Source: Aureococcus anophagefferens
Taxonomy: Eukaryota; Sar; Pelagophyceae; Pelagomonadales; Pelagomonadaceae
Assembly: GCF_000186865.1 (NCBI RefSeq)
Contig: NW_008705599.1
Span: 55,881-119,880 of the forward strand
Length of the DNA stretch: 64,000 nt
Reading direction: 5' to 3'
Numbering within the stretch: the stretch's first letter is position 1; every line of letters starts with the position of its first letter. This document shows, piece after piece, positions 6,118 through 60,755 of the stretch. The notes beneath the pieces were generated by a model. It saw nothing but the letters and a program-made list of their open reading frames with translations, was not told where the DNA came from and did no database searches. The position numbers and the translations under genes were made by a program.

Positions 6118-8357
6118 ATGGATCCGTCGTCGCCGCGCCCCAAGGGCGGCGCCGGGACGGCGTCCGTGCGCCTCGCCGTCGCGGCGCCCCTGAAGAACCT
6201 GCCCGTGGCCTTCGACGTCCTCGAGCGCGACATGGTCGTGCGCAGCGTCGAGCGACAGGAGTGCTTTTTCGCGTGAATTTCGCCTGAAGATGTGAAGAAA
6301 TCCGACCCCGTCGCACTTGGTAGGTCGTGCGCCACGGCGTGTCCGAGGCCCATCTTTATGATCTGGCCCACATGCTCAAGCAGCAGGTCGACTACGCCGC
6401 GGCGCCGCCGGACGCGGCGGGCGCCGTGGAGCCCCTCGTGGAGAAGGCGGCGGCCGAGAAGGCGACCTTCCCCTACATGTCCACCATGTTCTCCATGGAG
6501 GACAAGGCCGCGAAGGCCAAGGCCGACGCCGACCGGGCCCGGGCGCGCGCGGACGCGGTCGAGGCGCGGCGCCGGGCCTGGGAGGCCTGGCTCGTCGGCG
6601 CCTACGAGAACCTGGCGGCGGTCCAGTCCGAGGCCTTCGCCGACTTCTTCGAGGACGGCGACGGCGCCGGCGAGGGCTTGTACGGCCGCGGCGAGGCGCA
6701 GGGATCGGGCGACGCGGCGATCGCGCGCGCCGCGCGGACGCGGCGCCTCGTCGCCGAGGCCAACGCCGCCGCCGTCACGAAGGAGCGCGAGGCGCTCAAG
6801 GCGACGCTGCGCGAGCGCGAGGCGGCCATCGCCGCGCTCTTGGGCGAGTCGGAGCTCGAGTCCGCCAAGGAGTCGCGCGCCGTCGCCGCGCTCCGCGCGC
6901 GGCGGTCCGCGCTCGAGAGCTTCGTCGAGGAGCAGACGCTGGAGAGCGACCGGCGCGCCGAGGTGCGCGAGGCCGCCGCCGCGCACCGCGAGCGGCTCCG
7001 CGACGAGGTGCGCCGCGCGGGCGAGACCGCGGACCGGGCGCGCGACGACGTCGCCGCGGGCCGCGACCGCCACGCCGCGGAGAAGGCGGCCTTCGAGGCC
7101 AAGTCGGACCTCCTCGAGCGCGCCGTCGACGCCGCCGCGGCGTCGCACCGCGCCGCGGCCGAGCGCATGGGCGCCGCGGAGGAGCGCGCGTCGCGCGCGC
7201 GCGCGCGGCTCAGCAGCCGCCAGGCGGACGCGGCGGCCGCGGCGCACGAGGCGACGCGCGCCCTCGAGGCCTGGACGAACCTCGAGCGGGGCGAGCTGCC
7301 CCGGGGCGGCCGCGACAAGGACCAGGCGGCGAAGACGCGCGAGGACGCGGACCGCCTCGCGGCCGAGCACCGCCGCGCGTCCAAGGCGCGCGCGACGCTG
7401 CTCGCCGTCGAGGCGTCGCGGCGCCGCGACGAGGCCGCCGCCGTCCACGCGCTCGCCAAGCTCCTCGTCTTCGACGACGACGCGGACGCCGCGACGCCGC
7501 CCGAGGCGCCCGCGCGCGACGAGACCGGCGGCCCCGAGGACGTGTCCGAGCCGCCGCCGCAGCAGCTCCCGGACGCGACGACGGGCCGCATGCCGAGCCG
7601 CGCGGGCAGCGCGCCGGGCCACCGCCTCGTGTCGACCTACGCGTCCGCGGCGGCCGCCATCGACGACGAGCTCGCGCGTTCCCGCAAGGAGGACGCGCGC
7701 CTCGAGCGGCTCCTGGCCAACGAGCTCGAGAACGCCGTCTCCGGCGAGTCGGCGCTGACGCGCGTCCACGTCGGCTCCCTCAAGCGCCGCGACGAGCTCA
7801 AGGCCGCCGCGTCGGCCGCGCGCCGCGACCTCGCGTCGTGCGAGGCCGCGCGCGAGGCGACGGCCGGCGACCTCGAGGAGGCGTCGGACGCCCAGTCCCG
7901 CGCGCGCGACGTGCTCGGCGCCGCCGAGGCGGACCTGAAGGCGGCCCAGGGCGCGCTGAAGGACCACGCGGCGTCGACGCACGGCACGAAGCTCCGCCAC
8001 GCGCTCGACGCGGACGAGCACGTGCTCGCGCGCCACGAGTCCGCCAAGTTCTCCGTCGCCGACGCGCTGGCCGCCGCGGGCGACGACATCAAGATCGACG
8101 GGCTCAAGTGCCTGCCCCACGTCCTCGACCTCGCGAAGAACGAGATCATCCTCGTCGACGACCAGATCGACGGCCACGAGGCGAAGAAGGCGGCGCTCCG
8201 CAAGGACATCGCGGACGTCCACGCGGACTGGGAGACCGAGTCCGTCTCCCTCCGGGCCAAGCTCCACGGCGCCGAGTGCCAGCTCAAGCTCCTCAGCGAC
8301 GACGCGCGCGCCGCGGAGATGGTCCAGCGGGACATCCTCGAGACCGGCTCCATCTGA
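6118..8357 (+). CDS. Long coiled-coil protein of unknown function (two exons)
   Basis: Join 6118-6234 and 6324-8357, 716 residues. Exon 1 gives MDPSSPRPKGGAG then LKNLPVAFDVLERDM; exon 2 continues VVRHGVSEAHLYDLAHMLKQ. From about residue 110 onward the chain is nearly all Glu/Arg/Ala heptads (for example RAEVREAAAAHRERLRDEV), with one break near residues 440-490 (DDDADAATPPEAPARDE and a Pro/Gln stretch). I see no enzymatic motif, signal or membrane segment. The short N-terminal head may be the partner-binding part. Other coiled-coil families, for example cytoskeletal or centrosomal, cannot be told apart from sequence alone. Confidence 0.6.
6235..6323 (+). other. Intron, 89 bp, flanked by direct repeat GTCGTGCGC
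   Basis: Phase 0, ATG|GTCGTGCGCAGCG...TTGGTAG|GTCGTGCGCC. The first nine intron bases equal the first nine bases of exon 2. It contains stops in the host frame, so it must be removed to join the two halves of the coiled-coil protein. Confidence 0.7.
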
Positions 8358-8430
8358 GCGGACGTTCCCCCCGCTCTCCCCCTTTTTCGTCTAAGATCCG
8401 GTCGCCAGCAGGGTGCGCTCCCGCCTTAGG

Positions 8431-8500
8431 TCGCGCGGCGGCTCGGGCGGCGGCTCGGGGTGGTGAGCCGCCGCCGTCATTTCGCCCGCGCGGACGGGGT
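8431..8500 (-). promoter_or_regulatory. Candidate SECIS element in the 3' UTR of selenoprotein S
   Basis: On the minus strand an ATGA core (8480-8477) is followed by C, then an 11-bp perfect stem. Its arms are GGCGGCGGCTC (8475-8465) and GAGCCGCCGCC (8456-8446). The apical loop is ACCACCCC, and CGA follows the stem (8445-8443), which gives the UGA/GA quartet. A lower helix can form from GCGCGG and CCGCGC. The loop has CC rather than AA, a known variant. The core starts 53 nt after the stop codon. Fold by eye only. Confidence 0.65.
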
Positions 8501-8532
8501 CGCGTCGCTCGCGCGCCTCTCGGGCGCGGGTC

Positions 8533-8913: not shown

Positions 8914-9033
8914 GGCGTCGGTGACGGCGCGCGGCAGTGGCGCTGTTGGCAGCAGCAGCAGACGAAGCCGGTCTCGGTGCACCTTCGCGGCTCCGCAGCG
9001 TCAACAACCTGAAGTTGAGCCGCAGGGCAGCCC

Positions 9034-10575
9034 ATGGACCAGCAGAATCCGGCCGAAGAGGAGGCCGCGACGCCGCGAAAGTCGTCGCTGGCGGACCTGC
9101 TCTTCGGCGCGGAAGTCGACGAGCCGGCGCGGACGCCGCCGCCGCTGCCGCCGCGGCCGCCGCCGCCGTCGGCGGCCTTCACCGAGGCCGGCGAGAGCGA
9201 CGACGAGGCCGACGCGCCGGAGGAGCTCCGCGCCGCGCCGATCGACGAGCGCGACGCGCGCGCCGCGGCGCCGCCGCGCGCCGAGGCCGTCCTCGACGAG
9301 CTCCTCGGCGACGCGGCCGGCGTCGCGGCCGTCGTCGCCTACCTGCGCGAAAAGCGGCCCGACGTCGTCGCCGCGCTCGCCGACGCCGACTCCGAGTCCG
9401 ACGGCGACGCGCCGGCGGCGAAGCGCGTCACCTTCGCGGAGCTCCGGGAGGCCCACGCGGCCGGGTTCGAGCGCTCGTTCTCGGGCTTCCGGACCGTCGG
9501 CGACTCGTCGGACGACGAGAGCGACGGGAGCGACGCGTCCGACGACGACGACGACCGCGGCGGCGCCCGCGCGCCCCGCGACGTCCTCGGCGAGCTCCTC
9601 GCGCGCACCGAGAACCAGGCCTGCGCGGACTGCGGCGCCGACGAGCCCACGTGGGCGTCGACGACGCTCGGCTGCTTCGTGTGCACGGCCTGCAGCGGCG
9701 TCCACCGGAGCCTCGGCGCGCACTTGAGTTTGGTGCTTTCTTGTCGCCTCGACGACGCCCAGTGCGCGGCGGCGTCTCGACTTCATTTTCGAAAGACTCA
9801 CCGAAGCGTTCTTAGGTGGACGCCGGCGCGGCTGCGGCGCGTGGCGGCGCGGGGCAACGGCGCGGTCAACGAGAAATTCGAGTTCCACGTGCCGGCCGCG
9901 TGGCCCAAGCCCCACGCGGCCGAGGGCCGCGACTACCGCGAGCGCTACGTCCGGGAGAAGTACGAGCGCCGCGGCTTCCTCCGGCGGCGGCGGAAGCCCG
10001 CGGCGCTCCGCGCGGCGCCCGGCGGCGCGCTGGCGGCGGGCGCGGGCGGCGTCGAGTTCGTCGGCTTCGTCGCCTGCAAGCTGAGCGCCGCGCGCGACCT
10101 TTTGGACGTCGGCAAGACGGCGCTGTCGCCCGCGACGAAGCTCACGGCCGTGCTGCGCCTCGGCGACCAGACCGTGCGGTCCGTCGCGAACTTTAGGGGC
10201 GAGCGCGGCGCGTCGCCCATCTGCTGGGACGCGGCGCAGGACCTCATGCTCTGCTGGGACGGGGCCGCGGCGCTCCACGTCGACGTCTTCCTCGACCTCG
10301 AGCACGTCGGCGGCGCGGACGTGCCCCTCGGCCACCTCCGGGGCGGCGGCCCGCCGCCGGCCATGTCCACGGCGGACGGCGGCGTCTGGGTCCACCTCAG
10401 CGACCGCGACCGCAACCTCAACGTGCGCCAGTCCGCGGGCGCCGCGGCGGGCCTGAAGAAGTCGCTCCGCCGCGCGCTCCGGGGCTCCGTGAACCTCGGC
10501 ATCGTGAAGAACTCCGCGCGCCGCGCGCGCGGCGAGGTCAAGCTCGGGCTCGCCTTCACGCCCCTCGACCACTAA
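9034..10575 (+). CDS. ArfGAP-domain protein with C-terminal C2-like domain
   Basis: Join 9034-9761 and 9816-10575, 495 residues. An acidic, low-complexity N terminus (to about 190) precedes the ArfGAP zinc finger: [13 protein letters not shown], then [19 protein letters not shown], where the Arg of HRSLG is the GAP arginine. After the intron comes [20 protein letters not shown], the usual GNxxxN helix. Residues about 325-450 form a C2-like beta fold ([31 protein letters not shown], then [19 protein letters not shown]). The role would be Arf GTP hydrolysis at membranes with C2 lipid binding, like the plant AGD ArfGAP-C2 group; the lipid part is inferred. Confidence 0.85.
9762..9815 (+). other. 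Intron, 54 bp, in frame and without stop codons
   Basis: GCCCA|GTGCGCGGCGGCGTCTC...GCGTTCTTAG|GTGGAC. Read through, it would add 18 residues in the middle of the ArfGAP fold. Removing it restores [15 protein letters not shown], which fits the family. Confidence 0.75.
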
Positions 10576-12135: not shown

Positions 12136-12987
12136 ATGCTCGACGAGGACGACCTCACGACCGAGCCCGGGGTCATCGACCTCGCGATGCGCGGCTGGCG
12201 CACGCTCGACGAGCACCCGCTGGACACGCAGGCGAAGCGGGTCCAGCTCGAGCACAACAACCTCTCCGCGCTGCCGCGGGCCATCGGGAGCCTGACGTTC
12301 ATGCTCAAGCTCGACGTGTGCGCGGCGGCGCGGCGGGGAAATAAAACCGCGGCGCTCTTGGAACACCACTCCTCTAGGTCCCACAACATGCTCGAGACGC
12401 TGCCCAAGGCCATCGGCAAGTGCACGCGGCTCCGGGTCCTCTACGTCGACCACAACAAGCTCGAGGAGCTGCCCAAGGAGGTCGGCAACCTCTTCTTCCT
12501 CGAGGAGCTCAACGTCCGCGGCGCCGCGCGCGCGAATCGTGAAATTCCAGCACCGATTCGTATGTTTTCGTAGGCCGAGTACAACCGATTGATCACGGTG
12601 CCGTCGACGCTCGGCGGTCTGGTCGCGCTCCATAGCATCCGCCTCAAGCACAACAAGCTCGAGATGCTGCCCTACGAGATCGGCGGCCTCGAGACGCTGG
12701 ACGTCCTGGACTGCTCGGAGAACGACAAGCTCCACATGGTCCCCGAGGAGCTCCGGGACGACTCCGAGATGGTCAAGTTCGTGATCCGGCTCCACTTCGA
12801 CACGATGGGCCACATCAACAAGATCAAGCAGGAGTACGTCGACCTCCAGCAGAAGCTCCTCGTCCAGGAGCAGTCGAACCTGAGGCTCCGCGACGCCATC
12901 GAGAACAGCAAGTCCGAGAAGACGTCCATCATCGAGTCCCTCATCCCGGGCTCGGGCATCGCCTCCAAGGCCTGCACGATCATGTAG
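12136..12987 (+). CDS. Leucine-rich-repeat protein with C-terminal CaaX prenylation box
   Basis: Join 12136-12317, 12378-12513 and 12574-12987, 243 residues. At least five LRRs of the LxxLxLxxNxLxxLP type: VQLEHNNLSALPRAIG, KLDVSHNMLETLPKAIG, VLYVDHNKLEELPKEVG, EELNAEYNRLITVPSTLG and SIRLKHNKLEMLPYEIG. A short coiled coil (about 180-225) then leads to the end KACTIM. CTIM is a CaaX box whose final Met favours farnesylation, so the protein is probably tethered to membranes. It resembles small RSU1-like or plant PIRL-type Ras-group LRR proteins. Both introns fall exactly within repeats, and removing them restores repeat spacing. Confidence 0.8.
12318..12377 (+). other. Intron, 60 bp, in frame
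   Basis: GACGT|GTGCGCGGCGGCG...CTCCTCTAG|GTCCCAC, phase 2. It shares its first 13 bases with the ArfGAP intron at 9762. It contains no in-frame stop, so it is easily mistaken for coding sequence. Splicing restores LDVSHNMLE. Confidence 0.75.
12514..12573 (+). other. Intron, 60 bp, phase 0
   Basis: CTCAAC|GTCCGCGGCGCCG...TTTTCGTAG|GCCGAG. The 3' TAG is an in-frame stop. Joining gives EELNAEYNRLITVP with correct LRR spacing. Confidence 0.75.
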
Positions 12988-14727: not shown

Positions 14728-16922
14728 CTAGACGACCTCGCGCGTCGTCTTCTTGGGCTGCTTGTAGACGTCGTTGAGCTCGACGTCCGGGGAGCTCTCC
14801 CTTTCGGGCTCCTCGCCCGAGCCCGCGCACGCGTACCAGCAGCCGCAGATGCCGATGAGCGCGACGGCCGCGGCGAAGAGGACGAGCGCGAGCTGGCCCG
14901 GCAGGCCCAGGATCCGCCGCTTCGTCTTCTTCTTCTCGCGCTCGGCCGTCGGGCTCGGCGTCGGCGGCGCGTAGGGCGCCGCGTCGACGTCGAGGACCTC
15001 CTCGAGGCTCGCCGCGGCGGCCTGGGCGCCGGCGTCGCCCGTCGCCGCGGCCTCGGCGTCCAGCGCCTCCGCGAAGTCCGCGTCGGCGGCGCCCTCGAGG
15101 TCCGCGGCGACGGCGGCGCTGAAGGCCTCCGCGGACGCCGTCGACCGCGCGGTCACGTCGAACGTCGCGACGACGGCGCCGTCGAGGCGCCGCCTGTCCG
15201 CGAGTTCCGCGGCGACGTTCGCGACGTTGTCCGCCGCGAGGCCCAGGACGTCCGCGACGGCCGCCTCGAACGCGGCCTCGAAGGCCGGGTTTCGGAACGC
15301 GGCGACGTCGAGGCCCGCGAGGCGCATGCGCACGCCGCAGGACACCCAGGGCGCCGGCGCGGGCGTCGGCGCGGGCGTCGGGGCGGGCGTCGGCGCGACG
15401 ACGGGACCCGCCGTCGGCGCGGCCGCGGGCGCGGCCGTCGGGGCGACGGGCGCCGCGGTCGGAACGACGGGCGCCGCCGTCGGGCCGCCCGGCGCGACCG
15501 TCGGGCTCGGCGTGGCCGCGACGGGCGCGGGCGTGGGCTGGCCGGGCGCGACGGTGGGAGCGGGCGTCGGCGCCGCGGACGGGCGCAGCGTCGGCGGCGA
15601 CGACGGCCGCGGCGTCGGCGCGACGGGCGCGACCGTCGGCGGCGACGACGGCCGCGGCGTCGGCGGCGACGACGGCCGCGGCGTCGGCGCGACGGGGCTC
15701 GGCGTCGGGGGCGCGCCGTCGTCGTCGGAGTAGTCGGTGATGCCGTCGAGGCAGACAGCCGGGAACGGGTCCGTGACTCCCGGGGTCGCGGAAGCGACGT
15801 AGGCGTCCGTGACGCCGGACGTGCCGGAGCAGGAGCCCGCGCTCATCTCGTCGTAGGTGCAGCCCCGGTAGCAGTTGATCGTGAAGGGAAAGTACAAGGT
15901 CGCGTCGTCGGGCTTCGGGTCGCTCGGCAGGCTGTCGAGGTCTGACGTCGCGCCCGTGAAGTAGTAGCGGTACGTGAAGTCGTCGACGCCCGCGAGCTCG
16001 CCCTCGTAGCCGCCGCACTCGTCCTGGCAGTAGGTCGCGTCCGCGCCGTTTACGCCGCAGTTGGCGATCTCGACGCCGCCGGGGCCCAGGGGCCCGTAGA
16101 TGGGGAAGCCGTCGAATGACCAGCCAATCTGGGGGCTGTGGCCGTCGCTATAGTCGTCGAGCTGCGCGAGCAAGCACGACGGCGGGAAGTGGTAGTGGCT
16201 ACGGAAAAACACGGGTGAGTACGACGGCGACGAAAGGACGCGGGAGGACGCGCTACATGCCCGTGAGCTCCGCATGACCGGAGCAGCAGTCGAAGGACGT
16301 CCATTCCGCCATGCTGTCGGTGACGTCGAGGATCGAGCAGTCGCTCTCGACCTACGAAGCGCGGCGTTCCCGACCTCTCGACAGCCTTCATGAAGACGCC
16401 GCTCTCGACGGCGCCGGAGAAGATCGACACGCCGTTCAACGCGTAGGCGATTTCGCCCATCTCGCACTTCGTGTCGTCCGCCGTGTAGCGCGTCTTGAGG
16501 ACCGGCGACGCGGGGACGACTTTGGTCACGTCCTGGTCGCTCGCCTCCGTCGAGTCGCCGTTGGCGCCGATGGCGCCGCAGCCGCTGACGCCGTCCTTGC
16601 CCGTGCACATCGACTCGTGGTTCGGGCAGGTCGTTGTGACGATCGTGCGCGTGGCGACGCCGCCGGACGTGCCGATCGTCTCCTCGTATGCGGCGGACGT
16701 TCCGTCCGTGGCGCAGCTCGAGCTCGACGAGCCGCCGCCGCCGGGCGAGCCACCGCCGCCGCCGCCGCCTTGCGGCTGCGCATTCGTGATTGCCGCCAGG
16801 AAGCAGAGCCAATGGACGAGGCCGCGCCGCGACGGGAGGACGCGGCCGGCGACGCGCCGCTCCCGTCGCTGCCCGCGGCCTACCCGGACGAGACGCCGCT
16901 GGTCCACGGGCGGCCCCTCCAT
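14728..16922 (-). CDS. YHYH-domain surface protein with PT-rich stalk and C-terminal membrane anchor
   Basis: Join, in transcript order, 16922-16410, 16351-16257 and 16198-14728; 692 residues. A hydrophobic segment (VHWLCFLAAITNA) near residues 36-48 probably acts as a signal. The ectodomain contains FSGAVESDCSILDVTDSMAEW, then GIHYHFPPSCLLAQLDD and IGWSFDGFPIYGPLG, typical of the YHYH family. A long Pro/Thr/Ala stalk (15349-15715) leads to a folded module (MRLAGLDVAAFRNPAFEAAF). It closes with a membrane segment (LALVFAAAVALIGICGCWYAC) and a short charged tail. It is probably cell-surface exposed. The start is uncertain because the first 35 residues are basic. Confidence 0.7.
15349..15715 (-). 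repeat. PT/PAP-rich imperfect repeat coding a protein stalk
   Basis: Repeated units reading [13 protein letters not shown] and PRPSSPPT on the minus strand. The GGCGTCGG-type units recur throughout. Likely an extended, possibly O-glycosylated spacer of the YHYH protein. Confidence 0.7.
16199..16256 (-). other. Intron, 58 bp (YHYH gene)
   Basis: GGCAT|GTAGCGCGTCCTCCC...TTCCGTAG|CCACTACCAC, phase 2. Splicing creates TGIHYHFPPSC, the family signature. Confidence 0.75.
16352..16409 (-). other. Intron, 58 bp, flanked by direct repeat GTCGAGAGCG
   Basis: GGCGCC|GTCGAGAGCGGCGTC...CTTCGTAG|GTCGAGAGCGACTGC, phase 0. The first ten bases of the intron equal the first ten of the next exon. A third partial copy, GTCGAGAG, lies inside the intron. 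Confidence 0.75.
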
Positions 16923-19798: not shown

Positions 19799-22700
19799 AT
19801 GGCGCGCGCAGCCCGATGGTTGGGGCTGCTGCTCTGCTGCGTGGCCGGAACGAGCGCCGTCTCCCTCACCACGGCGAGCTCGGGCCTCGTCTACGAGCCG
19901 GACGTCGATTTCCACGGCAGCGACGAGATTACGGTCACGGTCCGCTCCGCCGCCGGCGAGTTCGCGTCGGCGGCCGTGCCCGTCGTCATCGAGGCGGCGA
20001 ACGACGCGCCGGAGCTCGCGGGCGTCGCCGCGGCGCGGGACGCCGCGGCGGCGCTCGACGTCGTCGCCGGCGGCGGCGCCCGGTGCGTCCTCGCGGCGCT
20101 CTCCGTCGTCGAGGCCGACGGCGACGGCGCGGTCGCGCTCTCCCTGACGGCAGAGCGCGGCGCGCTCGTGCTCGCGCCCCTCGCCGCCGAGGCCGCGGGC
20201 GTCGTCGTCGAGGCGCCGGCGACGAACTGGAGCGCGGCCTGGGCCCCGGCGCCCGCGAAGACGCTGCGGCTCCGCGCGGCGCCGCACCGCCTCCGAGACC
20301 TGCTCGCGGCCTGCGGCGTGACCTACGCGCCGCCGGACGTCGCCGGCGCCGACGCCCTCACGGCCCGGGCCGACGACGGCGCGCTCCGATCCGCTTTGGC
20401 GACCTTTCCCGTCGCCGTCGGCGCGCCGCGGGCGCCCGTCGTCGCCGCGTGCGGCGCCGCGGCCGCGGACGAGGACGGCGCCGCGGCGCTCAACCTGACG
20501 CTCGTCGGCGGCGCGCCCGAGGGCCCCTTCCTGCGCCTCTCCTGGACGACGAGCCACGGGGGCGCCGTGGCGCTGCGGGCGCAGGCGAACGCGACGGAGT
20601 TCCCGCGCGGCGAGTTCCGCGCGTCCGGGAGGAACGCCGTCGCGCTCGCGCACCCGCGCCAGCTCCGGGACCTCGTCGCGAGCGGCGCCCTCGTCTACAC
20701 GCCGGCGCGGCCGGGCCTCGAGTTCGCGACCTTCTCCCTGACCGCGGTCGCGACCTTCGACGGCGAAGCCGCGGGCGAGGCGACGTCCGCGACGTGCGGA
20801 GTGACGAGCGCGCCGGTCAACGACGTCCCGCGCCTCCTGGGCCCCCTCTGGCGCGGCGCGGCGACCTACCGCGCCGACGACGCCGAGTGGTTCACGGACG
20901 AGGACGTGCCCGCGGCCGTCCGCGGCGTCGTCGTCGCGGACGCGGACGCCGACGACGCCGCGGACGGCGAGGGCGTCGCCGTCTTCCTCGCGGCCCACCC
21001 GCCGGGCAGCGCCCTGGTCCTCGGCGGCGCGCCCGCGGGCGTGCGCATCTCCACGGCGAGCGGCGGCGGCGCCTGGCCCGCGGCGAGCGCCGCGCTCAAC
21101 GTCTCGGGCTCGCTCGACGGCGTGAACCGCGCGCTCGACGGCCTGCGCTACGTGCCGCCGCCGCACTTCGACGGCCTGGGCGTGATCGACTTCGTCGCCG
21201 AGGACGCACACGGCGCGCGCGACGCCGCGGCGGCTGTCATCCGCGTCGCGTTCGTCGACGACGCGCCGACCTTCGACCTCGGGCCGGCCGTCGACGGCGC
21301 CACGGGCGCCGTCGACGCGCTCGAGGACGCCGCCGTGCGCCTCGGCGGCGGCCTGCGGTCGGGCATCGGCGCCGACGCGCGGCGGACGCCGTCGCCGCGC
21401 GTCGCGGCGTTCTCCGACGCGGACTCGACGGCCGCGAGCCTCGTTATCTCGCTGTCTGCGGACGACGCGGCCGTCGCCTTCGCGCTCGTCGGCGACCACC
21501 CGGATGTCATCTTAGACGACGGGGAGCTCCGGGGCCTCGCCGGCGACCTCGCCGTCGCGTTCGACGACGTCGAACTCCTCCCGGCGCCGGACTGGCACGG
21601 CTTCGCGCGCGTGGCCCTCTCCGTCGCCGCCGCCGAGGACGAGGCGGCGATCCTCGCCTCGACGTCCTTCCTCCTGCGCGTCCGCGCCCTCCAGGACGCG
21701 CCCGCGGTCGTCGACGGCTTCCACGGCGCGCGGGAGGTCGACGAAGACGCGCCGCTCGCGCTGACGGGCGTGTCCGTCGTCGACGCGGACTACGACGACG
21801 CGGCCGTCGCCGCCGCGCCGTCGCTCTACTGCACGCTGCGCGTCTCCGCGCGGCGCGGGTCCGTAGCCCTCGCGGGCGGGACCTGGGCCGCGGCCGCCGC
21901 GGGCGCGTCCCTCGTCGACGACGACGCGGGCTCCTTGACGCTCGCGGGCCGGCCGGGCGAGCTCACGGCGGCGCTCGCGAGTCTCGTGTACACGTCGGCG
22001 CCCGACGGCGACGGCGGCGACGTCGTCGACTTTTCCGTCGACGACGGCGGCGCGTTCCCCTGCGACGACCAAAGCTGCGAGGCGCTCACGGGCGCGCTCG
22101 CGGTGCCGATAGCCGTCGCGTCCGTCAAGGACGCGCCGCGGATCACCGCGCCCGCGACCGTGCGCTACGCCGAGGCCTTCCGCGGCGTCGCCCTGGGCCG
22201 CAACGGCACGAAGCGCGAGACGCCCGTCGCCGGCGTCGAATTCGAGGACCCGGACAGCGACGTGCTCGCCGTGACCGTCGTCGCGGCCGGCGGCGGCGTG
22301 CGCACGGTGGACCGCGTGCCCGACGTCGACTACGGCGACGACCTCTGGAGCGAACGCGGCGCCGTCGTGCGGCGCGCGACGCTCCGCGCGAGCCCCGAGC
22401 GGCTCAACGCGGCGCTGTCGACGCTCGCGTGGGTCGGCGACGACGCCGCGGGCGACAAGGACGGGCTCGTCGCGGGCGCGATCACCATCACGGCGACGGA
22501 CGGCGACGGCCTCGAAACGACGGCGACCATCGCGCTGGAGGCGTCGGCGTTCAACGACGCGCCGGTCCTGTCCTCGGACCTGAGGTCCGCGGAGTTCGCC
22601 GAGGACTCGGGCTGGGCGGCGCTGCCGGCCGTCGCGGCGACGGACTTCGACGACGCGACGCTCGAGCTGCGGGCCGCGGCGCGGCCCGAGGGGGCGCTCG

Positions 22701-36083: not shown

Positions 36084-37313
36084 CTACATCTTGGCGAGGA
36101 GCGAGTCGATGACGGAGTAGAGGAAGACGCCGCCGATGCAGATGGCGGAGCCGAGGAGCTTGACGAAGGGGAGGTCCTCGCCGAGGACGAGCGCGACGCC
36201 GATGATGATGATGACGCGCTTGGCCGTGTTCGCGACGGACTGCGTGATCGCGTTCGTCTTCTTGATGGTCATGGTCGCGAGCTCGTTGTAGCCGTAGAAG
36301 TAGACGCCCGACAGGAGGAAGTTGGACTTGACGGCCGGGTTCGTCTTGAGGACCTCCATGAACTCGCCAAATTTCGCGCCCTCGGTCGCGAACATGAGCG
36401 GCAGCGACATGAGGAAGGCGAGGAGCGACGTGATGGCGAACTGGTTGCCGACGGAGCCGAGGCGGTCCTTGAGGCCCGGCGTCTCCATGAGCTTCTTGTT
36501 CTCGTTGCCCTTGAACGCCGCGAACAGATTCGCCGAGCACGCGGCGACGAGCGCGGACACGGCGAAGTCGAGCTCCTTGACGGACGCGATGATGACGCCG
36601 CCGATGACGGGGATGAGACAGAGCCACTTGGCCTGGGAGATGGGCTTGCCGTAGACGAACTGGGACAGCACCGCCGCGAACGCGGGCTCCGCGGCCTTGA
36701 CGATCTGGCCGAACGACACCGCGCCCGCGGACAGCGCGAAGACCGACGCGCAGTGGGCCATCATGGAGCAGAAGGCCACGGGGAGCATGGCGACGATGTC
36801 GTCCATCGTCAGCGCGGGGATGGACCGCATGTCGGGCGCGACCCACGCGAAGAGGGCGTAGACGACGCCGACGCCGAGCTGGAGCGACGCGATGGTCATG
36901 GGGAAGCCCTTGGAGCCGCCGGAGCCCTTGAGCGCGAGCTTGTTCGTGATGTTGTAGTAGTAGTTGCCGAGGTACCAGAAGAAGAAGTAGCCGAGCAGCG
37001 CGAAGTCGAGGCCCATGAACATGGACACGCTGCGGGCGGCGCGCGCGGTTCGAACTCCTTTTGGATGGGTTCATTCCGGGGACGCTGGCTCCATCACGCG
37101 CCGCCGCGGGCGGGCGTGGCGGCGACGGACTTGACGCCCTGGTCGAAGTCGCCGTAATCCGCGGACATGGCCGCCGAGCGGCCGACGACGGAGCCTGCGG
37201 TAGAGAGGGTTTCACGGGGCGTTTGCGTCGAGTCGGCACGCACCAGAGCGGCCCGCGGGCGTCAGCGCGACGGCCGAGCCGGCGAGGAGCGCAGCGGCGA
37301 CGACCGACTTCAT
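36084..37313 (-). CDS. Plastid triose-phosphate/phosphate-type translocator
   Basis: Join, in transcript order, 37313-37244, 37194-37098 and 37029-36084; 370 residues. Exon 1 is a signal peptide (MKSVVAAALLAGSAVALTPA). Exon 2 gives a short transit-like stretch (SADYGDFDQGVKSVAATPA). Exon 3 holds the TPT/EamA fold with eight or more membrane helices: FALLGYFFFWYLGNYYYNIT, VSFGQIVKAAEPAFAAVLSQ, then ITQSVANTAKRVIIIIGVAL with the conserved Lys-Arg pair, and a terminal LLAKM. It would exchange phosphorylated C3/C5/C6 compounds for phosphate across a plastid envelope membrane. The exact substrate class (TPT, PPT, GPT or XPT) cannot be read. Confidence 0.85.
37030..37097 (-). other. Intron, 68 bp (translocator gene)
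   Basis: GGCGC|GTGATGGAGCCAGCGTC...CGCCCGCAG|CGTGTCC, phase 2. Without splicing the frame hits TGA at once; with it the reading is ARGGAVSMFMGLDF. Confidence 0.7.
37195..37243 (-). other. Intron, 49 bp (translocator gene)
   Basis: CGCTCTG|GTGCGTGCCGACTC...CTACCGCAG|GCTCCG, phase 1. It joins the signal-peptide exon to GRSGSVVGRSAAMSA. Confidence 0.7.
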
Positions 37314-38384: not shown

Positions 38385-39332
38385 ATGGACGCGTTCATGT
38401 ACGCCCTGGCCCTCGTCGCGCTGCCCTGCTTGGCCATGATCATTCTCGCGGCCCTCGCCCTGTGCGTGCAGCCGCCGCCGGTCTTCGTCGCCGCGCTGCA
38501 GCACCTCGCCGCGGGCATCGTGCTCTCCGCCGTCGCCGTCGAGCCCAGCGTTTCGCACACGGAATGCTCGCCAGCGCGCGTTGAGAAGTCCGGTCCCCCG
38601 TAGGTCGAGCTCGTGCCCGTGATCAACGAGGCGCCGAGCTCCCTCGCGAACAACTCGGCCATCGCCGTCGGCTTCGCGCTCGGCGTCGCCCTCTTCGTCG
38701 TCGTCGGCAAGTTCTGCGGCGACGCGGACGACGACGGCGGCGACGAGACGCGGTCGCGGCTGCGCACCGTGTCGTCGGCGAACAGCGCCTGCTCCGAGGC
38801 CGGCCACGCGCCCAAGTCCAAGCTGGGCATGATGAAGGACTCGATGTGCGAGGCGGACTACGAGGTCGTCTCGGAGGCGCCGCGCTTCCCCAGGTACCCG
38901 ACGACCATGGTGCTCGCCGTGTTGGTCGACGCGCTCTGCGACGGCTTCCTGATCGGCGTCGCCGCGGCGTCGGGCACGAACGCGGGATTGATCATGGCCA
39001 TCGCGCTGACGATCGAGATGGGCTTCTTGTCGCTGACGTTCGCGACGACGCTGCGGCGCCAGCCGCGCGCCGTCGCCTTCGTGAGCATCGCGCTGCCGCC
39101 GGCGTGCCTCATGCTCGGCGGCGTCCTCGGCGCGTCGACGGCGAACGTCGTGTCGCGGACGCCCGCGCTGCACGTGGGGCTCGTGTCCTTCGGCGTCGCC
39201 GCGCTGCTCTACCTCGTCACGGAGGAGCTGCTTCTAGAGGCGCACGAGAGCCACGAGGGGCACATCTGGTGGGTGGACTGCTGCTTCTTCCTCGGGTTCC
39301 TCATGTCGTTCCTGCTGGATAAGCTGCTCTAG
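38385..39332 (+). CDS. ZIP-family metal transporter-like membrane protein
   Basis: Join 38385-38537 and 38604-39332, 293 residues. Exon 1: MDAFMYALALVALPCLAMII and QHLAAGIVLSAVAV, two membrane helices. Exon 2 begins VELVPVINEAPSS. A cytosolic loop (GDADDDGGDETRSR) precedes helices with LVDALCDGFLIGVAAASG and ALTIEMGFLSLTFATTL, where Asp/Glu in the membrane resemble ZIP metal ligands (the usual His are absent). More helices end in FLGFLMSFLLDKLL. At least seven helices in all. Metal specificity is unknown; loss of the His suggests an unusual ligand set. Its stop is 2 bp from that of the next gene. Confidence 0.65.
38538..38603 (+). other. Intron, 66 bp, flanked by direct repeat GTCGAGC
   Basis: GTCGCC|GTCGAGCCCAGCGTTTC...CCCCCGTAG|GTCGAGCTCG, phase 0. 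The start of the intron repeats the start of exon 2. The 3' TAG is an in-frame stop. Confidence 0.75.
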
Positions 39333-39334
39333 CG

Positions 39335-39970: not shown

Positions 39971-40317
39971 GGTTCCTACCGCCTTGCCGCGTCAAGCCCC
40001 ACTACGAGGCGCTTTTCCAGCGCCGCGTCGAGCGTCTCCCTCTCCGCTCCGAGGCGCGCGTCTCGACCTAAGAGCTCAGGGGCTGCCTCGCACCATCGTC
40101 ATGTCAGCATCCCCTTCACTAATCGGTCAAGATATGTGTGCACTTTCCCGTGAAACGTCCGAAGTTTCGGCTCCCGCAATTCCTATCAAGTTTCAGGGCT
40201 GCGCCGCCCGGGAACCACCATGGGCGCCCGGCACTCTCCGCACAACGCAAAGCAACAAGCAACCAGGCATCGCCTCGGACCCCACCTCGCGCCCCCACGC
40301 CACCACCGCAAGCCGCC

Positions 40318-42329
40318 ATGAAGCTCTCCCTCGCCTGCGCCGCCTCCCTCGCCCTCGGCGCCTCGGCCTACCTGGACCAGATCTCCTGGGAGGACGGCGG
40401 CGAGGCGCTGGACCTGGCCCTGGAGCTCGAGGCGGCCCTCGCCAAGGACGCCGAGTACCTCGAGCAGTGGACGTCGGGCACGGACATGGAGCGCCTCGAG
40501 CTCCGGCGCCGCATGGACGCCTACTCGTACTTCTACACCGACGCGCCGACTTACGCGCCGGTCGAGTCCACGCCCGAGCCGACGCCCAACCCCACGCCCG
40601 AGCCGACCCCCAAGCCCACGCCGTCGCCGACCCCGCTCCCCGGCGACCCGTCCGCGGCGCCCGTCTTCGCCCCCACGGCCAAGCCCACGCCCGAGCCGAC
40701 GCCGAAGCCGACGCCCGCGCCGACGCCCGCGCCGACGCCCGCGCCGACGCCCCGGCCCACGCCCCGGCCCTCGCCCGAGCCCACGCCCGAGCCCACGGCC
40801 GAGCCCACGGCCGAGCCCACGCCCGAGCCCACGTCGGCGCCGACGGTCGGCGCCGTCGAGTCGGGCTGCGAAGATTCGACGTCCTGGTTCTACGACGACG
40901 AGCCCGACAAGAACTGCGCGCACGTGGCCGCGAAGTCCGTCCAGCGGCGTCTCACCCCTCAATTACTCCCCATCTGATCCTATTCCTCCTCAGGTTGTCC
41001 CGGTGCGACTCCAAGGAGGACGACACCGGGGTCCTGGCCAAGGACGCCTGCCCCGCGACGTGCTCGAACTGCCCCTCCGCGTGCGCGGACGACGTGACGT
41101 GGTTCTACGACGGCGACGAGGACAAGAACTGCGCCAAGGTCGCCGAGAAGCTGTCGCGCTGCGACTCCAAGGAGGACGAGGACGGGGTCCTGGCCAAGGA
41201 CGCCTGCCCGGTGACGTGCTCGAACTGCCCCGACGACGACGCGGAGGAGGACGACGAGGAGGAGGACGAGCCCGAGGAGACGTGCACGGACAGCACGAGC
41301 TGGTACTACAAGTCAGCAGCGGTGTCCCCCTCAATCCTACCCCACCCCACCAAATGATCCCGTCCCGCGGTTCCTCCCGGGCTCGCTACGTTCAGAGACG
41401 CGTCAAACCAAATGATCCCGTCCCTCCTCAGGAAGAGCAAGAACGACTGCGACTGGATGGCCAAGAACACGAACAAGTGCAAAAAGAAGGGTTTGGACAA
41501 GGTGAAGGGCCGCGATGCCTGCCCGGTCGCGTGCGACGAGTGCCCCGAGGAGGAGGTGTGCGAGGACAGTACTTCGTGGTTCCGCAAGAAGAGCAAGTAC
41601 GACTGCGCGTGGGTCGCGGAGTCCCCGTCGAAGCGCTGCGAGAAGGACGACGAGCACGGAATCGACGCCGAAGACGCCTGCCTCGTCTCCTGCGGCGTCT
41701 GCGAGGCGCCCGCGCCGACGCCGAAGCCGTCCCGCGAGCCGACGGCGAAGCCCACGTCCGCGCCGACAAGCAAGCCCACGTCCGCGCCGATTGTCGCCAC
41801 GCCGGTGCCCACGGTCGGCACGGTCGAGTCGGGATGCGAGGATTCCGTCAGCTGGTTCTACGGCGGCAATCCGGAGAAGGGCTGCGCGCGCGTGGCCGAG
41901 AGCCTCGGGCGCTGCGACAGCAAGGAGGACGACCACGGCGTGCTCGCAAACGAAGCCTGCAAGGCGACCTGCGGGACCTGCCCCACGACGCCCACGTGCG
42001 AGAACAGCGCCTCCTGGTTCTACAAGGACGAGAAGCGCGACTGCGACTGGGTCGCAATCAAGCCGGACGTCCGCTGCGCCAAGGAAGACGACGAGGACGT
42101 GTCCGCGCACGAAGCGTGTCCCACGGTCTGCGACGCCTCCTGCGCCGTCGCCGACAGCACATCGTGGTACTACGGCAAGCCGTCCAAGAATTGCGACTAC
42201 ATCGCGGAGAAGACGTCCCGCTGCTCGAGCAAGAAGGACGACGACGGCATCTACGCGCACGAAGCCTGTCCGGTCGCGTGCGCGGACGCGGGCGAGCAGG
42301 ACCGCAAGCTCCTCCGCGGCGCGAATTAG
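40318..42329 (+). CDS. Secreted protein with seven ShKT-like Cys-rich repeats and PT-rich linkers
   Basis: Join 40318-40934, 40994-41311 and 41432-42329; 610 residues. Signal peptide [18 protein letters not shown] short acidic region leads to a [10 protein letters not shown] linker (about 75-180). Seven Cys repeats follow the pattern C-D-S-x-S-W-F-Y, K-x-C, R-C, A-C-P-x-T-C-x-x-C, for example [20 protein letters not shown] then [11 protein letters not shown] second PT linker separates repeats 4 and 5. Six Cys in this order match ShKT-like domains, which in algae and oomycetes occur in extracellular enzymes and adhesins. Repeat 7 has lost its first and last Cys. No catalytic domain is attached. 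The role is probably cell wall or surface. Confidence 0.75.
40554..40850 (+). repeat. [14 protein letters not shown] repeat tract
   Basis: Twelve-base units (CCGACGCCCGCG and variants) coding PTPA, PTPE and PTPR, forming an extended linker in the ShKT protein. Confidence 0.8.
40935..40993 (+). other. Intron, 59 bp (ShKT gene)
   Basis: GCGAA|GTCCGTCCAGCGGCGTC...CCTCCTCAG|GTTGTCC, phase 2. It contains CTGAT as a possible branch site. Joining gives [12 protein letters not shown], identical in register to the next repeat. Confidence 0.8.
41312..41431 (+). other. Intron, 120 bp, with internal duplication
   Basis: TACAA|GTCAGCAGCGGTGTC...CCTCCTCAG|GAAGAGC, phase 2. The 17-base segment CCAAATGATCCCGTCCC occurs twice inside, about 60 bp apart. 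The intron looks like a unit-length intron doubled. Confidence 0.75.
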
Positions 42330-43707: not shown

Positions 43708-46700
43708 TCACGGCGCGGGCGCCGACGTCGCGTTGATCTCCGTGATGAAGGCGAGCGCGTCGTCCTTGGAGATGTGGTGCAGCTTGGACGTCTTGTGGTG
43801 GAGGGAGATGCCGAAGTGGGCGTCGGCGATGTTGACCTACGAAGTACGATTTCCACGCGCGAGAATCGATCGGAAAAGTATGCGCGACGCTGAATGGTGA
43901 CGAATTCCGGCCGAAACGTCGTCGTGATGAACTGCGCGGGCGCGTCCTCGGCCGCGGCCTGGCGCTTGACCAACGCCGCGACGGCCGCGCGGTGGTTCGC
44001 GTCGAGCGCCGCGTCGATCTCGTCGAAGAGGTAGAAGGGCGCCGGGTCGCAGCGCTGGATGGCGAAGACGAGGGCCAGCGCCACGAGGGCCTTCTGGCCG
44101 CCGGAGAGCTGGTTCATGGACACGTGCGCGTGCGCGGCGGCCGCGCCCGGGAACTGGACCGCGACCTGGACGCCGACGAAGGGCCCCGCGTCCACGGAGA
44201 GCGACGACGCCGAGGACTGGGACGGCGCCTCGGCGACGGGCCGCTTGACCATGACCAGCTTCGCCTCGCCGTCGGGCACGAGCTCCGAGAAGACGTCCGC
44301 GAAGTGTTTGGACACGCCGCGGAACGTCCGGTCGATGGCCTCGTCCTTTTTGGCGTCGAGCGTCCGGATGAGGTCCTCGATGGCCGTCGCGCCCTCGTCG
44401 AGCTCGCGGCGCCGGTCCAGCAGCAGCGCGCGCTGGTCCGCGAAGTTGACGTACTGGTCCAGCGCCTTCTTGTTCACGTGCGCGAATTTCGCCTTGTCGC
44501 GGTTGCACGTCGCGAGGTTCGCGAGCAGCTCGTCGATGCTGAGGTCCTTGAAGGCGTCGACCTCGCGCGCCGGCAGCGCGCCGACGCGCTGCATCTTCTT
44601 CATGTTCTCCTCGCGGCGCTGGAGCAGCACCGCGCGGCGGGACACGAGCTTCTCGGCCGTCTTCGCCGCGTCCGCGAGGTCGTCCGCGAGCGCCTGCCGC
44701 GCGGCGCGCGCCTCCTCGAGGGCCTGGGCGTCGGCGTGCGCCGCCTGGGCCGCCGACGCGACGCCGCGCTCCGCGGCCTCGACGGCGGCCTCGTCCGCGG
44801 CGTAGTCCGACGTCGCCGCGGCGAGCGCCGACTTCGCGGCCTCGAGCGCCTCGACGCGGTCCGCGCGCGCTGCGGCCGACTCGCCCTCGGCCGCCGCGCC
44901 CTCGTCGTCGGACTCGTCCATGGCGTCGTCGCCGCCGTCGTCGTCGTCCTCCTCCTGGGACGCCTCCGCGGCGACGAGGCCGAGCGCCGCGCGGAGGTCG
45001 TCGCGCTCCTTGCGGAGGCGGCCCTCGAGGGCCGCCTCGAGGGCCCGCGCGGCGCCCTCGGCGTCGTCGAGCGCCGCCCGGGCGTCGTCGCGCGCGCGCT
45101 GCAGCGCGACGCGCCGCGCGCCGCCCTCGGCCAATTCCTCGAGCTCCGCGCGCTCCGCCGTCGCGTTTTCCGACGCGCGCCACGGCGCCTTGAGCCGGCG
45201 GCGCGCGTCGCCGCAGGCCGCCTCGAGGTCCGCGGCCGCGCGGTCCGCGCGGGCGACGCGGTCCGGGTGGAAGGCGCGCAGCGCGTCCTCGGCGTCGCGG
45301 CAGCGCAGCGCGAGCTGGTCGTGCGCGGACCGCGCGGCGAACGCCGCGCCCTTGAGGTGGTCGCGCTGCGCCGCGAGGTCCGCGGCCTTGCGGCCGTCGG
45401 CTTCGAAGGACGTCGCCGTCGCCTCGACGCGCGCCCGGGCGGCGGCGAGCGCCGCGTCCGCCGTCGCCACGGCCGCCTCCGCGGCGCGGAGGTCGCCGTG
45501 CGCGAGGAGCGTCGAGTCCCGGTCCTCGCGCGAGCCGCCGTGGAGCGCGCCGAAGCGGCTCACCTCGTCGCCCTCGAGCGTGATGGCGTCGAGCTTGACC
45601 TCCGACGCGTAGCGCGTCGCCGCCTCGAGCGTCCGCGCGAGCAGCGTCTTGCCGAAGACGACGTCGAGCGCCGCGTCGACGTCCGGGCCGCCGCGGCGCT
45701 CGAGGAGCGCCGCGTCGCGCAGGGGCACGACGTCCGCCAGCGCGTCGTCGGGCATGGACACCTTGGGCGGCACGCGGAGCCGGTTCAGGGGCATGAAGGT
45801 CAGGCGGCCGAGCTTCGGGTCCTTCTCGAGGCGCTCGACGATCGTCGCCGCCGTCGCGTCGTCCTCGACGACGACGTGGAAGAGGCGCGGGCCCGCGGCG
45901 ACCTCGACGGCGACGCGGTACTTGTCCTCGGCGAGGTGGACGTGGTCCGCGAGGGGGCCGAGGCACTTGGCCGCGAGCTCCGGCGACTCCGCGAGCAGCG
46001 CGTCGAGCGCCGCGAGGCCGCGCGCCGTGTGGCCCGGCAGCAGGCGCCGCAGGTCGTCGCGGCGGCCCGCGGCGACGCGTTGCGCGGCGCTCTTCGCCTC
46101 CTCGGCCCGCGTCGCCGCCGCCTGGGCCGCCGCGACCGCGCGCTCGTCCGCGCGCGACTCGAGGACCGCGCGGCGCGCGTCGCCCGCCGCGGCGGCCTCC
46201 GCGAGGGCCTTGGCGCCCTCGGCGTGCTTGGCGGCCAGATCGCGCTTCATGGCCTCGAGCTGGCGCGCGGCGTCGTCGCGGGCCTCGCGCGCGGCCTCCG
46301 CGTTGCGCGCCGCGCGGTTCTTTTGGTCCTCGAGCTCGGCGAGCCGCGGCTTCAGCGCCGCGTCGCGCGCCGCGCGGCTGCCGAAGCGCTCCTCGCGGCT
46401 CAGCTCCGCGGCGCGCCGCTCCGCGCGCTCCAGCGCCGTCGCCGCGTCGAGGTACGCGTCGCGCTTCGCGCCGCGCGCCTCCGTCGCGGCCGCGAGGTCG
46501 CGCGCGCCGCGCGTCGCGGCGCGCGTCGCGCGCGCGAGGCGCCGCGCCGCGGCCGCGGCCCAGGCCGCGTCGCCCTCGACGCGCGCGCCGAGCGTCGCCA
46601 CGGCCTGCTCGGCGTCGGCGCGCGCCGCGAGGGACGCGGCGAGCGCGTCGTCCGCGGCCCGCTTCGCGTCGTCGAGCGCCTTCCGGCCCGCGGCCGCCGC

Positions 46701-53882: not shown

Positions 53883-53910
53883 CTAGGCCCGCCGCCGGCA
53901 CCCCCCTAGG

Positions 53911-56430: not shown

Positions 56431-56920
56431 ATGAAGCTCGTCTATGTCCTCCTCGTCGCCGCCGCGTCGGCCCTGAGCCGTCGGCAGCTCATCACCAAGG
56501 CGCCGGCAGCGGCAGCGCTGGTCGCGGCGCCCGCGGCGAGCTGGGCGTCCGGCGTTTCGCTGGAGGAGGCGGCGAAGTGATCCCGCGGCGTCCTCTTTGT
56601 CGCCCGCCGCGCGCGAACACCCCGCGCGCAGGAACGCGGAGCGGTACCGCGTCAAGGCCGGCATCTGCACGCCGACGAACCCCGCGGACTGCTCGGAGCA
56701 GTACGGGAAGATGCGCGCGCGCGGCGTCGACGCCGCCGCGCCGCCCGCCGCCGCGACCGCCGCCGCGCGCAGGTTGGACCCGCGCAAGGGCCTGAGCAAG
56801 GAGGAGCTCGCCGTGCGCGACAAGCGCAACGACGAGGAGCTCAACTCGCTCAAGGGCATGATGGCCGCCTACGACCCGGACGTCGCGCGCGACAACGCGC
56901 GGAAGCCGTCTCGGAAGTAG
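56431..56920 (+). CDS. Probable thylakoid-lumen protein with twin-arginine leader
   Basis: Join 56431-56576 and 56632-56920, 144 residues. The leader is MKLVYVLLVAAASA (signal peptide), then SRRQLITKAPAAAALVAAPA and SWASG. This gives a twin arginine, a hydrophobic Ala/Val core and an A-x-A-type site, as expected for Tat export to the thylakoid lumen in a plastid reached through the ER. The mature part has two Cys (AGICTPTNPADCSEQYGK) and a C-terminal helical region (KGLSKEELAVRDKRNDEELN). I do not recognise the mature domain; small extrinsic photosystem subunits have this size. It starts 82 bp from the divergent gene. Confidence 0.65.
56577..56631 (+). other. Intron, 55 bp (lumen-protein gene)
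   Basis: GGCGAA|GTGATCCCGCGGCGTCC...CGCGCGCAG|GAACGC, phase 2. Unspliced reading meets TGA at once; spliced reading gives EEAAKNAERYRVKAG. Confidence 0.75.
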
Positions 56921-59900: not shown

Positions 59901-60468
59901 CCGGCGACCTCCCAGAGGTTCCGCGAGACGACGAACGTCGTCTCGAAGCCGTAGCACCACCTGGGCGGGACCAGGGCGATTCGACGCGAGTGGTCCGCGC
60001 GCGCGCGCGTTCCCGAAAACTCATTCACACGTCGAGAGCGCTCCGAGAGGTGATCGCTCGTCCAAAGATCGGCCGAAACGAGTGGAAAGCGGCCGAGAGA
60101 GGAGCCCTCGAAGTGGGGACCGTCGCGCCCTTTTCCTGCCCTGAGCACCACTCGAGGTCGAGGCGGAGCGGCGGCGGCTTCGACGAGCGCCGCACGGCGG
60201 CGTCGACGTCGAGGCCCGCGGGCACGCCGACGGGCGTCGTGCAGGGCCAGGCCGAGACGACGTCGCCCGCGCGCGCGGCGCCGTGTCCCGAAGGCACGTG
60301 GAGCGGCCGCCGCGCGGCCGCGCCCGCGTGGGGCGCCGCGAAGCCGCCGCGGCGCAGGCGGCGCTCGGGCTTCGGCCGCGGCGCCGGCGCCGGCGCCTTC
60401 GCGCGGCGCGGGACGGCCTCGGGGTAGCCGCCCTCGCGCGCGGCCCACCGCGGCGGCGACGCGGGCTT

Positions 60469-60516
<48 letters not shown>

Positions 60517-60755
60517 GTCGAGCCGCGCGGCGTCCGCGAGGCTCACGGGCCCCTCGCCGCGGTCCGGCAGCCGCGCGCGCACGTCCTCGAAGCCCGGCGC
60601 CGCCGCGTAGTCCTCGAGCGTGTGCCTAGGAAGCGGCGGGTTTCGTGGGTCGCGCGACGCTGGCGAGGCGACGGCGCGCGCGCATCGACGGCGCCCTCCG
60701 CGGCGCGCGCCGCCTTGTGCAGCTGCTGGGCGCCGAACTCGTCGAGGCCTTCCAT
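56973..60755 (-). CDS. EML-like HELP/WD40 protein with C-terminal zinc fingers
   Basis: Join, in transcript order, 60755-60673, 60625-60152, 59960-59909, 59830-59700 and 59643-56973; 1136 residues. N terminus MEGLDEFGAQQLHKAARAAE, then a Pro-rich linker. The HELP motif RLDLEWCYGFETTF spans an intron. VVYAAAALVVVYDVARHRQR and LVASGDAAADPAILVWD begin the WD40 array, which forms at least two propellers (for example LLTGGGDGRVYAWRG; VGHRDGAIAVHG). The C terminus has two C2HC-type fingers, CFMCGALNPAATFANHRRTC and CEHCKRRFKKPALRKHRRAC. EML proteins bind microtubules; the fingers are an unusual addition. Four introns were placed by family conservation and all phases close. Confidence 0.8.
59644..59699 (-). 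other. GC-AG intron, 56 bp (EML-like gene)
   Basis: CTCGTCGC|GCGCGTCTCCGCGCC...CCCCCCTAG|GTCCGG, phase 2. No GT donor gives the expected LVASGDAAADP; a GC donor does. Confidence 0.65.
59831..59908 (-). other. Intron, 78 bp (EML-like gene)
   Basis: TGGGAG|GTCGCCGGCGACC...AACGCACTAG|GTCGTC, phase 0; GTCG is shared at both ends. Joining gives NLWEVVYAAAALVV. Confidence 0.75.
59961..60151 (-). other. Intron, 191 bp, flanked by perfect 8-bp direct repeat GTGGTGCT
   Basis: CTCGA|GTGGTGCTCAGGG...CCGCCCAG|GTGGTGCTACGG, phase 2. Eight bases at the intron start equal the first eight of the next exon. Splicing yields LDLEWCYGFE, the HELP motif. Confidence 0.8.
60473..60513 (-). repeat. GGC triplet run coding polyproline
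   Basis: Uninterrupted GGC on the plus strand, read as about 15 consecutive prolines in the EML-like protein. Confidence 0.9.
60626..60672 (-). other. Intron, 47 bp (EML-like gene, first intron)
   Basis: GCGCC|GTCGCCTCGCCAGCGTCGC...CTTCCTAG|GCACAC, phase 2. It carries CAGCGTCGCGC, also present in the SMC3 intron at 43837. Spliced product: AVDARAPHTLEDYAAAPGFE. Confidence 0.7.

Follow-up and report, generated by a model that had tools for sequence, protein, structure and literature searches.

Introners are already known in Aureococcus. Those of Aureococcus anophagefferens, described by Huff et al. 2016, reportedly resemble DNA transposons, with one splice site supplied by the target-site duplication (TSD) and the other by the element. 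Here we analyze a stretch of 64,000 nucleotides from the A. anophagefferens genome (contig NW_008705599.1, positions 55,881 to 119,880 of the forward strand; hereafter the window), in which a sequence motif recurs just downstream of splice donors. The motif is very probably the left terminus of short, nonautonomous, DNA-transposon-like introners that apparently use their TSD as splice donor. The short families to which it belongs, S1 and S2, add members to the introners known before, come from the same genus, and apparently divide the splice sites between TSD and element just as those of Huff et al. 2016 do.

One class of A. anophagefferens introners measures 200-210 nt (length per PMC9481584), and two longer families that we encountered, A and B, fit this class. 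Unlike the A. anophagefferens introners known before, S1 and S2 are only 80-81 nt long, have weak terminal inverted repeats, and use mostly GC donors; a 2021 paper describes the elements of this species as always having canonical splicing motifs (PMC7789003). Introner family 4 of Aureococcus sp. TARA_AOS_82_MAG_00129 shares an 8-bp TSD with S2, a likeness of description rather than of sequence, and is illustrated by a 77-nt example (PMC9860276, Fig. 2F legend). Because S2 without CAGC is also 77 nt long, the two may be the same. Splicing of the 77-nt introner is said to add 4 + 8 = 12 bp (PMC9860276), whereas the evidence below favors exact excision from the repeat, often at a GC donor. GC donors range from 0 to 50% per introner family in the same source, compared with 24/39 in S1 and 14/20 in S2. 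Farther afield, the introners of Symbiodinium microadriaticum also carry the 3′ splice site in the element and take the 5′ site from the TSD (PMC9860276, Fig. 2B legend), but they have a 4-bp TSD and clear terminal inverted repeats. The noncanonical introners of Amoebophrya likewise consist of repeats, have donors that depart widely from GTRAGT, and are bounded by direct repeats; they differ in having repeats of 3-5 nt and no clear splice-dinucleotide signature (PMC7789003), whereas ours have 8-bp repeats and begin G(T/C) in 78 of 79 copies. In the main-text passages of open-licence papers that we covered, we found no account of 80-nt Aureococcus introner families.

The first-pass annotation of the window had placed the pattern GCG(G/C)?GTC(C/T) near the donors of about 14 of 18 introns. 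We placed 17 introns by combining a gene finder, homology, and inspection of TSDs, with the donors partly chosen once the TSDs were known. In 9/17 of these introns, the strict motif, C(A/G)GCGT(C/T), begins at +9 to +11; the loose form GCG(G/C)0-2GTC occurs in 6/17, and one or the other in 11/17. The earlier count was thus not reproduced, and its "most introns" overstates a motif found in about half. Even so, the strict motif occurs at only 2.9% of 41,037 coding G(T/C) sites, far below its frequency in the introns (p ~3e-10). Five of six quoted examples are exact, downstream of the donor, and on the right strand; the sixth, at 16409, reads GCGGCGTCTT, not GCGGCGTCTC. The donor reported at 6235 is present, and no donor among the 17 is GTRAGT, as had been noted. 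The donor classes given, GTC, GTG, or GC, cover 16/17; the intron at 16256 begins GTA.

The enrichment is also seen with donors called without reference to motif or TSD. We trained a small hidden Markov model (HMM) gene finder on the window and a further 200 kb of this genome, using both strands; its only inputs were base composition, codon usage, start and stop codons, GT or GC donors, and AG acceptors. It predicted 160 introns, one of which contained a run of N and was dropped before TSDs and motifs were counted. Of the 68 short introns that contain a stop codon or alter the frame, 16 carry C(A/G)GCGTC within -14 to +25 of the donor, compared with 5.3% of 40,472 coding sites (p = 4e-7); in the window alone, the count is 6/21 short introns. 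No enrichment appears in the 43 short calls without a stop or frame shift (2/43) or in the 40 longer introns (4/40). The literal first-pass pattern is not significant near the same donors (4/68, p = 0.21), and the useful core of the motif is C(A/G)GCGTC.

A second test likewise made no use of the motif: the opening 8 nt of each intron were compared with those of the exon that follows. Seven or more of the eight positions match in 24/159 HMM introns, whereas shuffling donors and acceptors gives a mean of 2.5 (maximum 8, 200 shuffles); all eight match in 12/159 against 0.22. Families A and B account for 11 of the 24, and five of the other 13 carry C(A/G)GCGT at +9 or +10.

Across the genome (49.05 Mb, 86 contigs), the motif recurs at the end of a repeated element. 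Elements of S1 (80 nt) and S2 (81 nt), both flanked by the 8-bp TSD, begin CAGCGTC right after the first repeat copy (repeat 1) and end (C)TTGGTAG right before the second. When one S1 copy was used as a DNA query, the best 40 (query included) of 146 candidates were scored, many of them approximately 90% identical over the left 54 nt. The 39 best-scored others make up our S1 sample. A TSD of at least 7/8 flanks 31 of them (null mean 0.24, maximum 3 in 1000), and 29 form 88-nt introns, the element plus 8 nt. The pattern CAGCGTC N52-80 TTGGTAG, which covers S1 and S2, has 213 genome matches against 7 for its control. From these, we took 20 copies that were S2-like by eye, in order and skipping two shortened ones. 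All were thus pattern-selected for both ends, and all 20 have a TSD of at least 7/8 (19 perfect, one 7/8). A shorter, more diverged S set has the form CGGCGTC...CTTCGTAG. Its broader pattern, GCGTC N20-50 TTCGTAGG, has 110 matches against 19 for the reversed control. Eighty of these were fetched with their flanks, in order from the 100 rows listed, leaving out the first row, three inside the 200-kb training DNA, second rows that shared an end, and the last ones, from C28 on. After two with repeated interiors were dropped, 78 nonredundant copies remained. A TSD matching at 7/8 or better flanks nine of these (null mean 1.35, maximum 7 in 1000), and each time it ends directly before CGGCGTC.

The long families have other left ends. 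Family A (CAGGGCAG...CTGCCCAG, ~192 nt) and family B (CTGTGTGG...CCACACAG, ~203 nt) contribute eight and three HMM introns with TSDs, respectively. Single-copy genome queries returned 2095 (A) and 1774 (B) first-look candidates, of which the best 40 were scored for each. The family A pattern has 1141 genome matches against 2 for its control; rows 7 to 26 of these were fetched, and all 20 carry CAGGGCAG at +9. For B, we took the 20 highest-scoring copies apart from the query; two pairs among them share flanks (18 distinct). Compared as inverted repeats, the two ends match at 13 (A) and 14 (B) of the first 15 positions. A and B also share a central segment in inverted orientation (~75% over 87 nt; L016:4869-5060 versus L020:9691-9893), which suggests that they are probably related elements.

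Two side observations concern copy structure. The interior of family A occurs in either orientation (11 and 9 of 20 copies, L170-L189), and both forms read CAG...CAG on the matched strand, as the search pattern requires; these are two lineages of opposite polarity, each with an acceptor AG at its right end. B copies L152 and L154, ~2.5 kb apart on C7, have the same TSD and flanks and represent a local duplication, and L166 and L168, on two contigs, likewise share TSD and flanks.

The first-pass annotation had offered two readings of the motif, introner-type shared descent and an extended 5′ splice signal. Descent is borne out by near-identical copies throughout the genome, 8-bp TSDs at fixed positions, and a frame restored on exact excision. 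The other reading, a signal selected in unrelated introns without common ancestry, is very improbable. It would suit the absence of a GTRAGT-like consensus after G(T/C), as well as the introns at 38538 and 43901, diverged copies that keep the left end while the interior is barely recognizable. However, near-identical whole elements with TSDs show descent directly, introns of A (with 1141 matches) and B have different sequences at +9, making such a signal unneeded, and the distance of the motif drifts to +10 and +11. Some role in splicing for the element end may nevertheless exist, since positions 5-6 of S1, S2, A, and B elements are G(T/C). We give chance a negligible place. The window is 63-81% GC in 2-kb steps, GC-rich sequence makes GCGGCGTC common, and the motif forms occur in 2.2-7% of coding windows, but chance is refuted by the TSD shuffles, the pattern controls, the motif enrichment, and the G(T/C) statistics that follow.

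If the TSD supplies the donor, the first bases of repeat 1 should be constrained. They begin G(T/C) in 78/79 copies of S1, S2, and A, against a background of 0.20. The mirror feature, a repeat ending in (A/G)C, is found in 34/79 (background 0.22), an imbalance that suggests that a splice donor has been selected for. An indel adjoining the element led us to re-register two S1 copies (L111, L127) by hand; otherwise, 36/39 S1 copies start G(T/C). The 79 donors comprise 48 GC, 30 GT, and one that is neither. GC outnumbers GT by 3.7 to 1 in coding sequence, so GT is favored only ~2.3-fold (p = 5e-4). No GTRAGT-like consensus is seen at positions +3 to +8, where just G at +3 (41/79) and C at +8 (43/79) are mildly overrepresented. 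In family B, G(T/C) lies on the forward side only in 10 copies, on the inverted side only in 5, and on both in 5. No copy lacks it, where ~37% would be expected from coding frequencies to have it on at least one side. Because G(T/C) is found on either side, one B element seems to make introns in either orientation, as a review reports for introners of Huff et al. (PMC10228655).

The same constraint could reflect a transposase that prefers G(T/C) at the start of its target. A symmetric preference of this kind would predict the roughly 2-fold enrichment of (A/G)C at the repeat end. It does not fit the strong asymmetry between the two ends, the B copies, where either end of the element can have the G(T/C), or family A, where the G(T/C) start accompanies both interior orientations. 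We therefore regard target preference as unlikely and selection for a donor in the repeat as the better explanation.

Excising repeat 1 together with the element should leave the reading frame intact. The flanking frames are in phase after such exact removal in 37/39 S1 and 20/20 S2 copies. Retention would shift the frame in 31/39 S1 introns, whose length is 1 mod 3. By itself, the frame test cannot separate a donor at the repeat boundary from one 12 nt further in, and each element does offer a potential donor of its own there, at +13 (S: CAGC/GTC; B: CTGT/GTG; A: CAGG/GCA). If it were used instead, splicing would add 12 nt (8 of TSD and 4 of element), or four codons, to the mRNA. Element positions 5-6 are GT in 39/39 S1 and 20/20 B copies and, by the search pattern itself, GT in S2 and GC in A. 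A 12-nt addition would preserve the frame, S2 shortened by its CAGC has the published length, and the HMM first picked this site at 6247, 38550, C1 15892, and C1 54816. Its penalty on GC is not the whole reason for that choice, because the repeat donor is GT at two of the four sites.

Several observations nevertheless favor the repeat boundary. An element splicing at its own donor has no need of a repeat that begins G(T/C), yet nearly all repeats do, with no comparable constraint at the mirror end, and G(T/C) flanks every B copy on one side or both. Protein evidence points the same way. In the SMC3 gene, the element's own donor lies at offset 13 and would shift the frame. The repeat boundary at 43901 gives FRPEF/VNIAD, and the same residues occur in P0126, P0128, and P0129, three database sequences (including two gene models) that continue without a break at precisely this boundary, whereas the gene model P0127 differs there. 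The boundary residues were aligned to SMC3 of a solved structure, 7w1m. Overall, the spliced window SMC3 matches A. anophagefferens proteins at 89, 90, and 99% over 25, 44, and 16% of its length, and a 1177-residue database protein at 99% over its whole length. In the ZIP transporter gene, the repeat boundary gives SAVA/VELVP, matching uninterrupted relatives, whereas the element's own donor would place four extra residues in this stretch. Two such relatives, P0007 and P0008 (63% identity), have an uninterrupted open reading frame across the site, on contigs of 1.5 and 1.2 kb that may be DNA or cDNA; the best named relative of the spliced protein, from Pelagophyceae sp. CCMP2097, is 58% identical. 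Homology of the ArfGAP, YHYH, and leucine-rich repeat (LRR) genes agrees with other junctions in the window. Because of the constrained G(T/C) start of the repeat, the SMC3 offset, and the ZIP relatives, we favor the repeat boundary and consider splicing at the element's own donor quite unlikely; it is possible that both donors are used side by side.

Several features expected of introners and of cut-and-paste transposons are present. Many similar introns lie at nonhomologous positions and the coding frame is restored on their removal, while the fixed 8-bp TSD fits a cut-and-paste transposon resembling miniature inverted-repeat transposable elements and, by its length, the hAT superfamily. An 8-bp TSD is not unique to hAT. 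We propose that a transposase would make a staggered 8-bp cut, with repair duplicating the target, and that the spliceosome would then splice from the initial dinucleotide of repeat 1, as donor, to the TAG of the element, as acceptor. The protein would be left unchanged by splicing of the insertion, and insertions whose target begins GT or GC would thus survive in exons. With age, copies would lose length and TSD identity, and the motif would drift from +9 to +10 or +11.

We tentatively extend this proposal, with rather low confidence, to how the donor is chosen: it may be set by position, as a G(T/C) 8 bases upstream of the element, with the motif as anchor. Most such donors would be GC, and almost no consensus would follow at positions +3 to +8. 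The published 12-bp addition could then be an artefact of gene prediction, one that disallowing GC donors would favor. In diverged copies the motif shifts from +9 to as far as +11, which argues against a strict ruler of distance.

Several findings weigh against our interpretation as a whole. The alternative in-frame donor at element positions 5-6, 12 nt past the repeat donor, is present in all four families. The S ends have no good terminal inverted repeat by eye, S1 alone having a subterminal GTRACGATTTT pair. A TSD of at least 7/8 is missing from 69/78 of the fetched GCGTC...TTCGTAGG copies, from which we conclude that many matches to this pattern are old or unrelated. In the window, five introns bear the motif without a TSD (9762, 37097, 40935, 56577, 60672), and 6/17, one of them the family A copy, have neither form of the motif. 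Searches for hAT (PF05699) and KDZ transposase domains gave no match, although their controls matched nothing either.

Other searches bear on the origin of the elements and on the splicing machinery. One S1 word sought in viral contigs was found in none. U6 snRNA is canonical in the genome, whereas an Rfam search for U1 snRNA gave no match, with an equally empty control, and the single match to a U1 5′-end word was without Rfam support. RNA hairpins were rejected as the cause of donor choice: of seven introns folded, one S2 copy fell beyond z -2 (z -2.4), and neither the window copy (z 0.45) nor the S1 copy (z 1.06) did.

The window holds examples seemingly at different stages of decay (Table 1; introns are named here by their donor position). 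Two of the 17 introns are recognizable full copies of repeat families, those at 6235 (S2) and 60151 (A); the latter is 81% identical to the family A query over 167 positions. Three more, at 16409, 38538, and 43901, combine the motif with a TSD of at least 7/8. The intron at 16409 is the rank-1 match of an S model in the window (E = 0.036), with nonsignificant shuffle tests against single S1 and S2 copies (p 0.13, 0.12), and the junction at 38538 is supported by the relatives that read SAVAVELVP without interruption. Among the five introns with the motif and no TSD, those at 9762 and 40935 are probable old S copies and that at 60672 a probable old S2 copy, judging from weak S1 or S2 similarity (p 0.003-0.03, 300 shuffles, uncorrected for 34 comparisons). 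The remaining seven introns give no clear sign of introner origin. They include the intron at 12318, which resembles S2 (p = 0.003, uncorrected) without motif or TSD, and whose origin is unproven.

Table 1. Introns and introner features of the window.
Feature	Position	Strand	TSD	Motif and other details
Introner intron, family S2, 89 nt	6235..6323	+	GTCGTGCG, 8/8	
S2 element, 81 nt	6243-6323	+		CAGCGTCGAG...CTTGGTAG; 80/81 identical to copy at G000:C1:3383947
Second TSD copy, start of exon 2	6324..6331	+	GTCGTGCG	
Intron, ArfGAP gene	9762..9815	+	5/8	CGGCGTC at +9; junction by ArfGAP homology; S1 similarity p = 0.02, uncorrected
Intron, LRR gene	12318..12377	+	none	CGGCGCG at +9 (not the motif); junction by P0001 LDVSHN
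Second intron, LRR gene	12514..12573	+	none	no motif
Intron, YHYH-domain gene	16199..16256	-	none	loose motif only
S-type introner, 58 nt, YHYH gene	16352..16409	-	GTCGAGAG, 8/8	CGGCGTC at +9; end CTTCGTAG
Intron	37030..37097	-	none	CAGCGTC at +11
S-type introner, 66 nt, ZIP transporter gene	38538..38603	+	GTCGAGCC/GTCGAGCT, 7/8	CAGCGTT at +9
Intron	40935..40993	+	4/8	CGGCGTC at +11; S1 similarity p = 0.02, uncorrected
S-type introner, 65 nt, SMC3	43837..43901	-	GTCACCAT/GTCAACAT, 7/8	CAGCGTC at +10; end CTTCGTAG
Intron	56577..56631	+	none	CGGCGTC at +10
Introner intron, family A, 191 nt	59961..60151	-	GTGGTGCT, 8/8	element CAGGGCAG...CCGCCCAG
Intron	60626..60672	-	none	CAGCGTC at +11; S2 similarity p = 0.003, uncorrected

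Neighboring genes gave three further observations. In the environmental protein P0009, the ZIP transporter of the window is joined to the cysteine-repeat protein that the next gene encodes (window 38385-42329); P0009 is either a deletion allele or an assembly chimera. In the cysteine-repeat gene itself (window 40318-42329), some repeats contain introns and similar repeats do not. A giant open frame of 4581 residues (window 19799-33544) has a bacterial Ig-like domain, Big_9, as its sole Pfam match.

Introns of this kind would probably be misplaced by gene predictors that do not allow GC donors. The families also provide a natural experiment on donor choice, in which each insertion samples a target 8-mer and the survivors reveal which donors work. 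Within one genome, copies with perfect TSDs stand beside shrunken, diverged copies that keep mainly their ends, making the birth of introns visible at base resolution.

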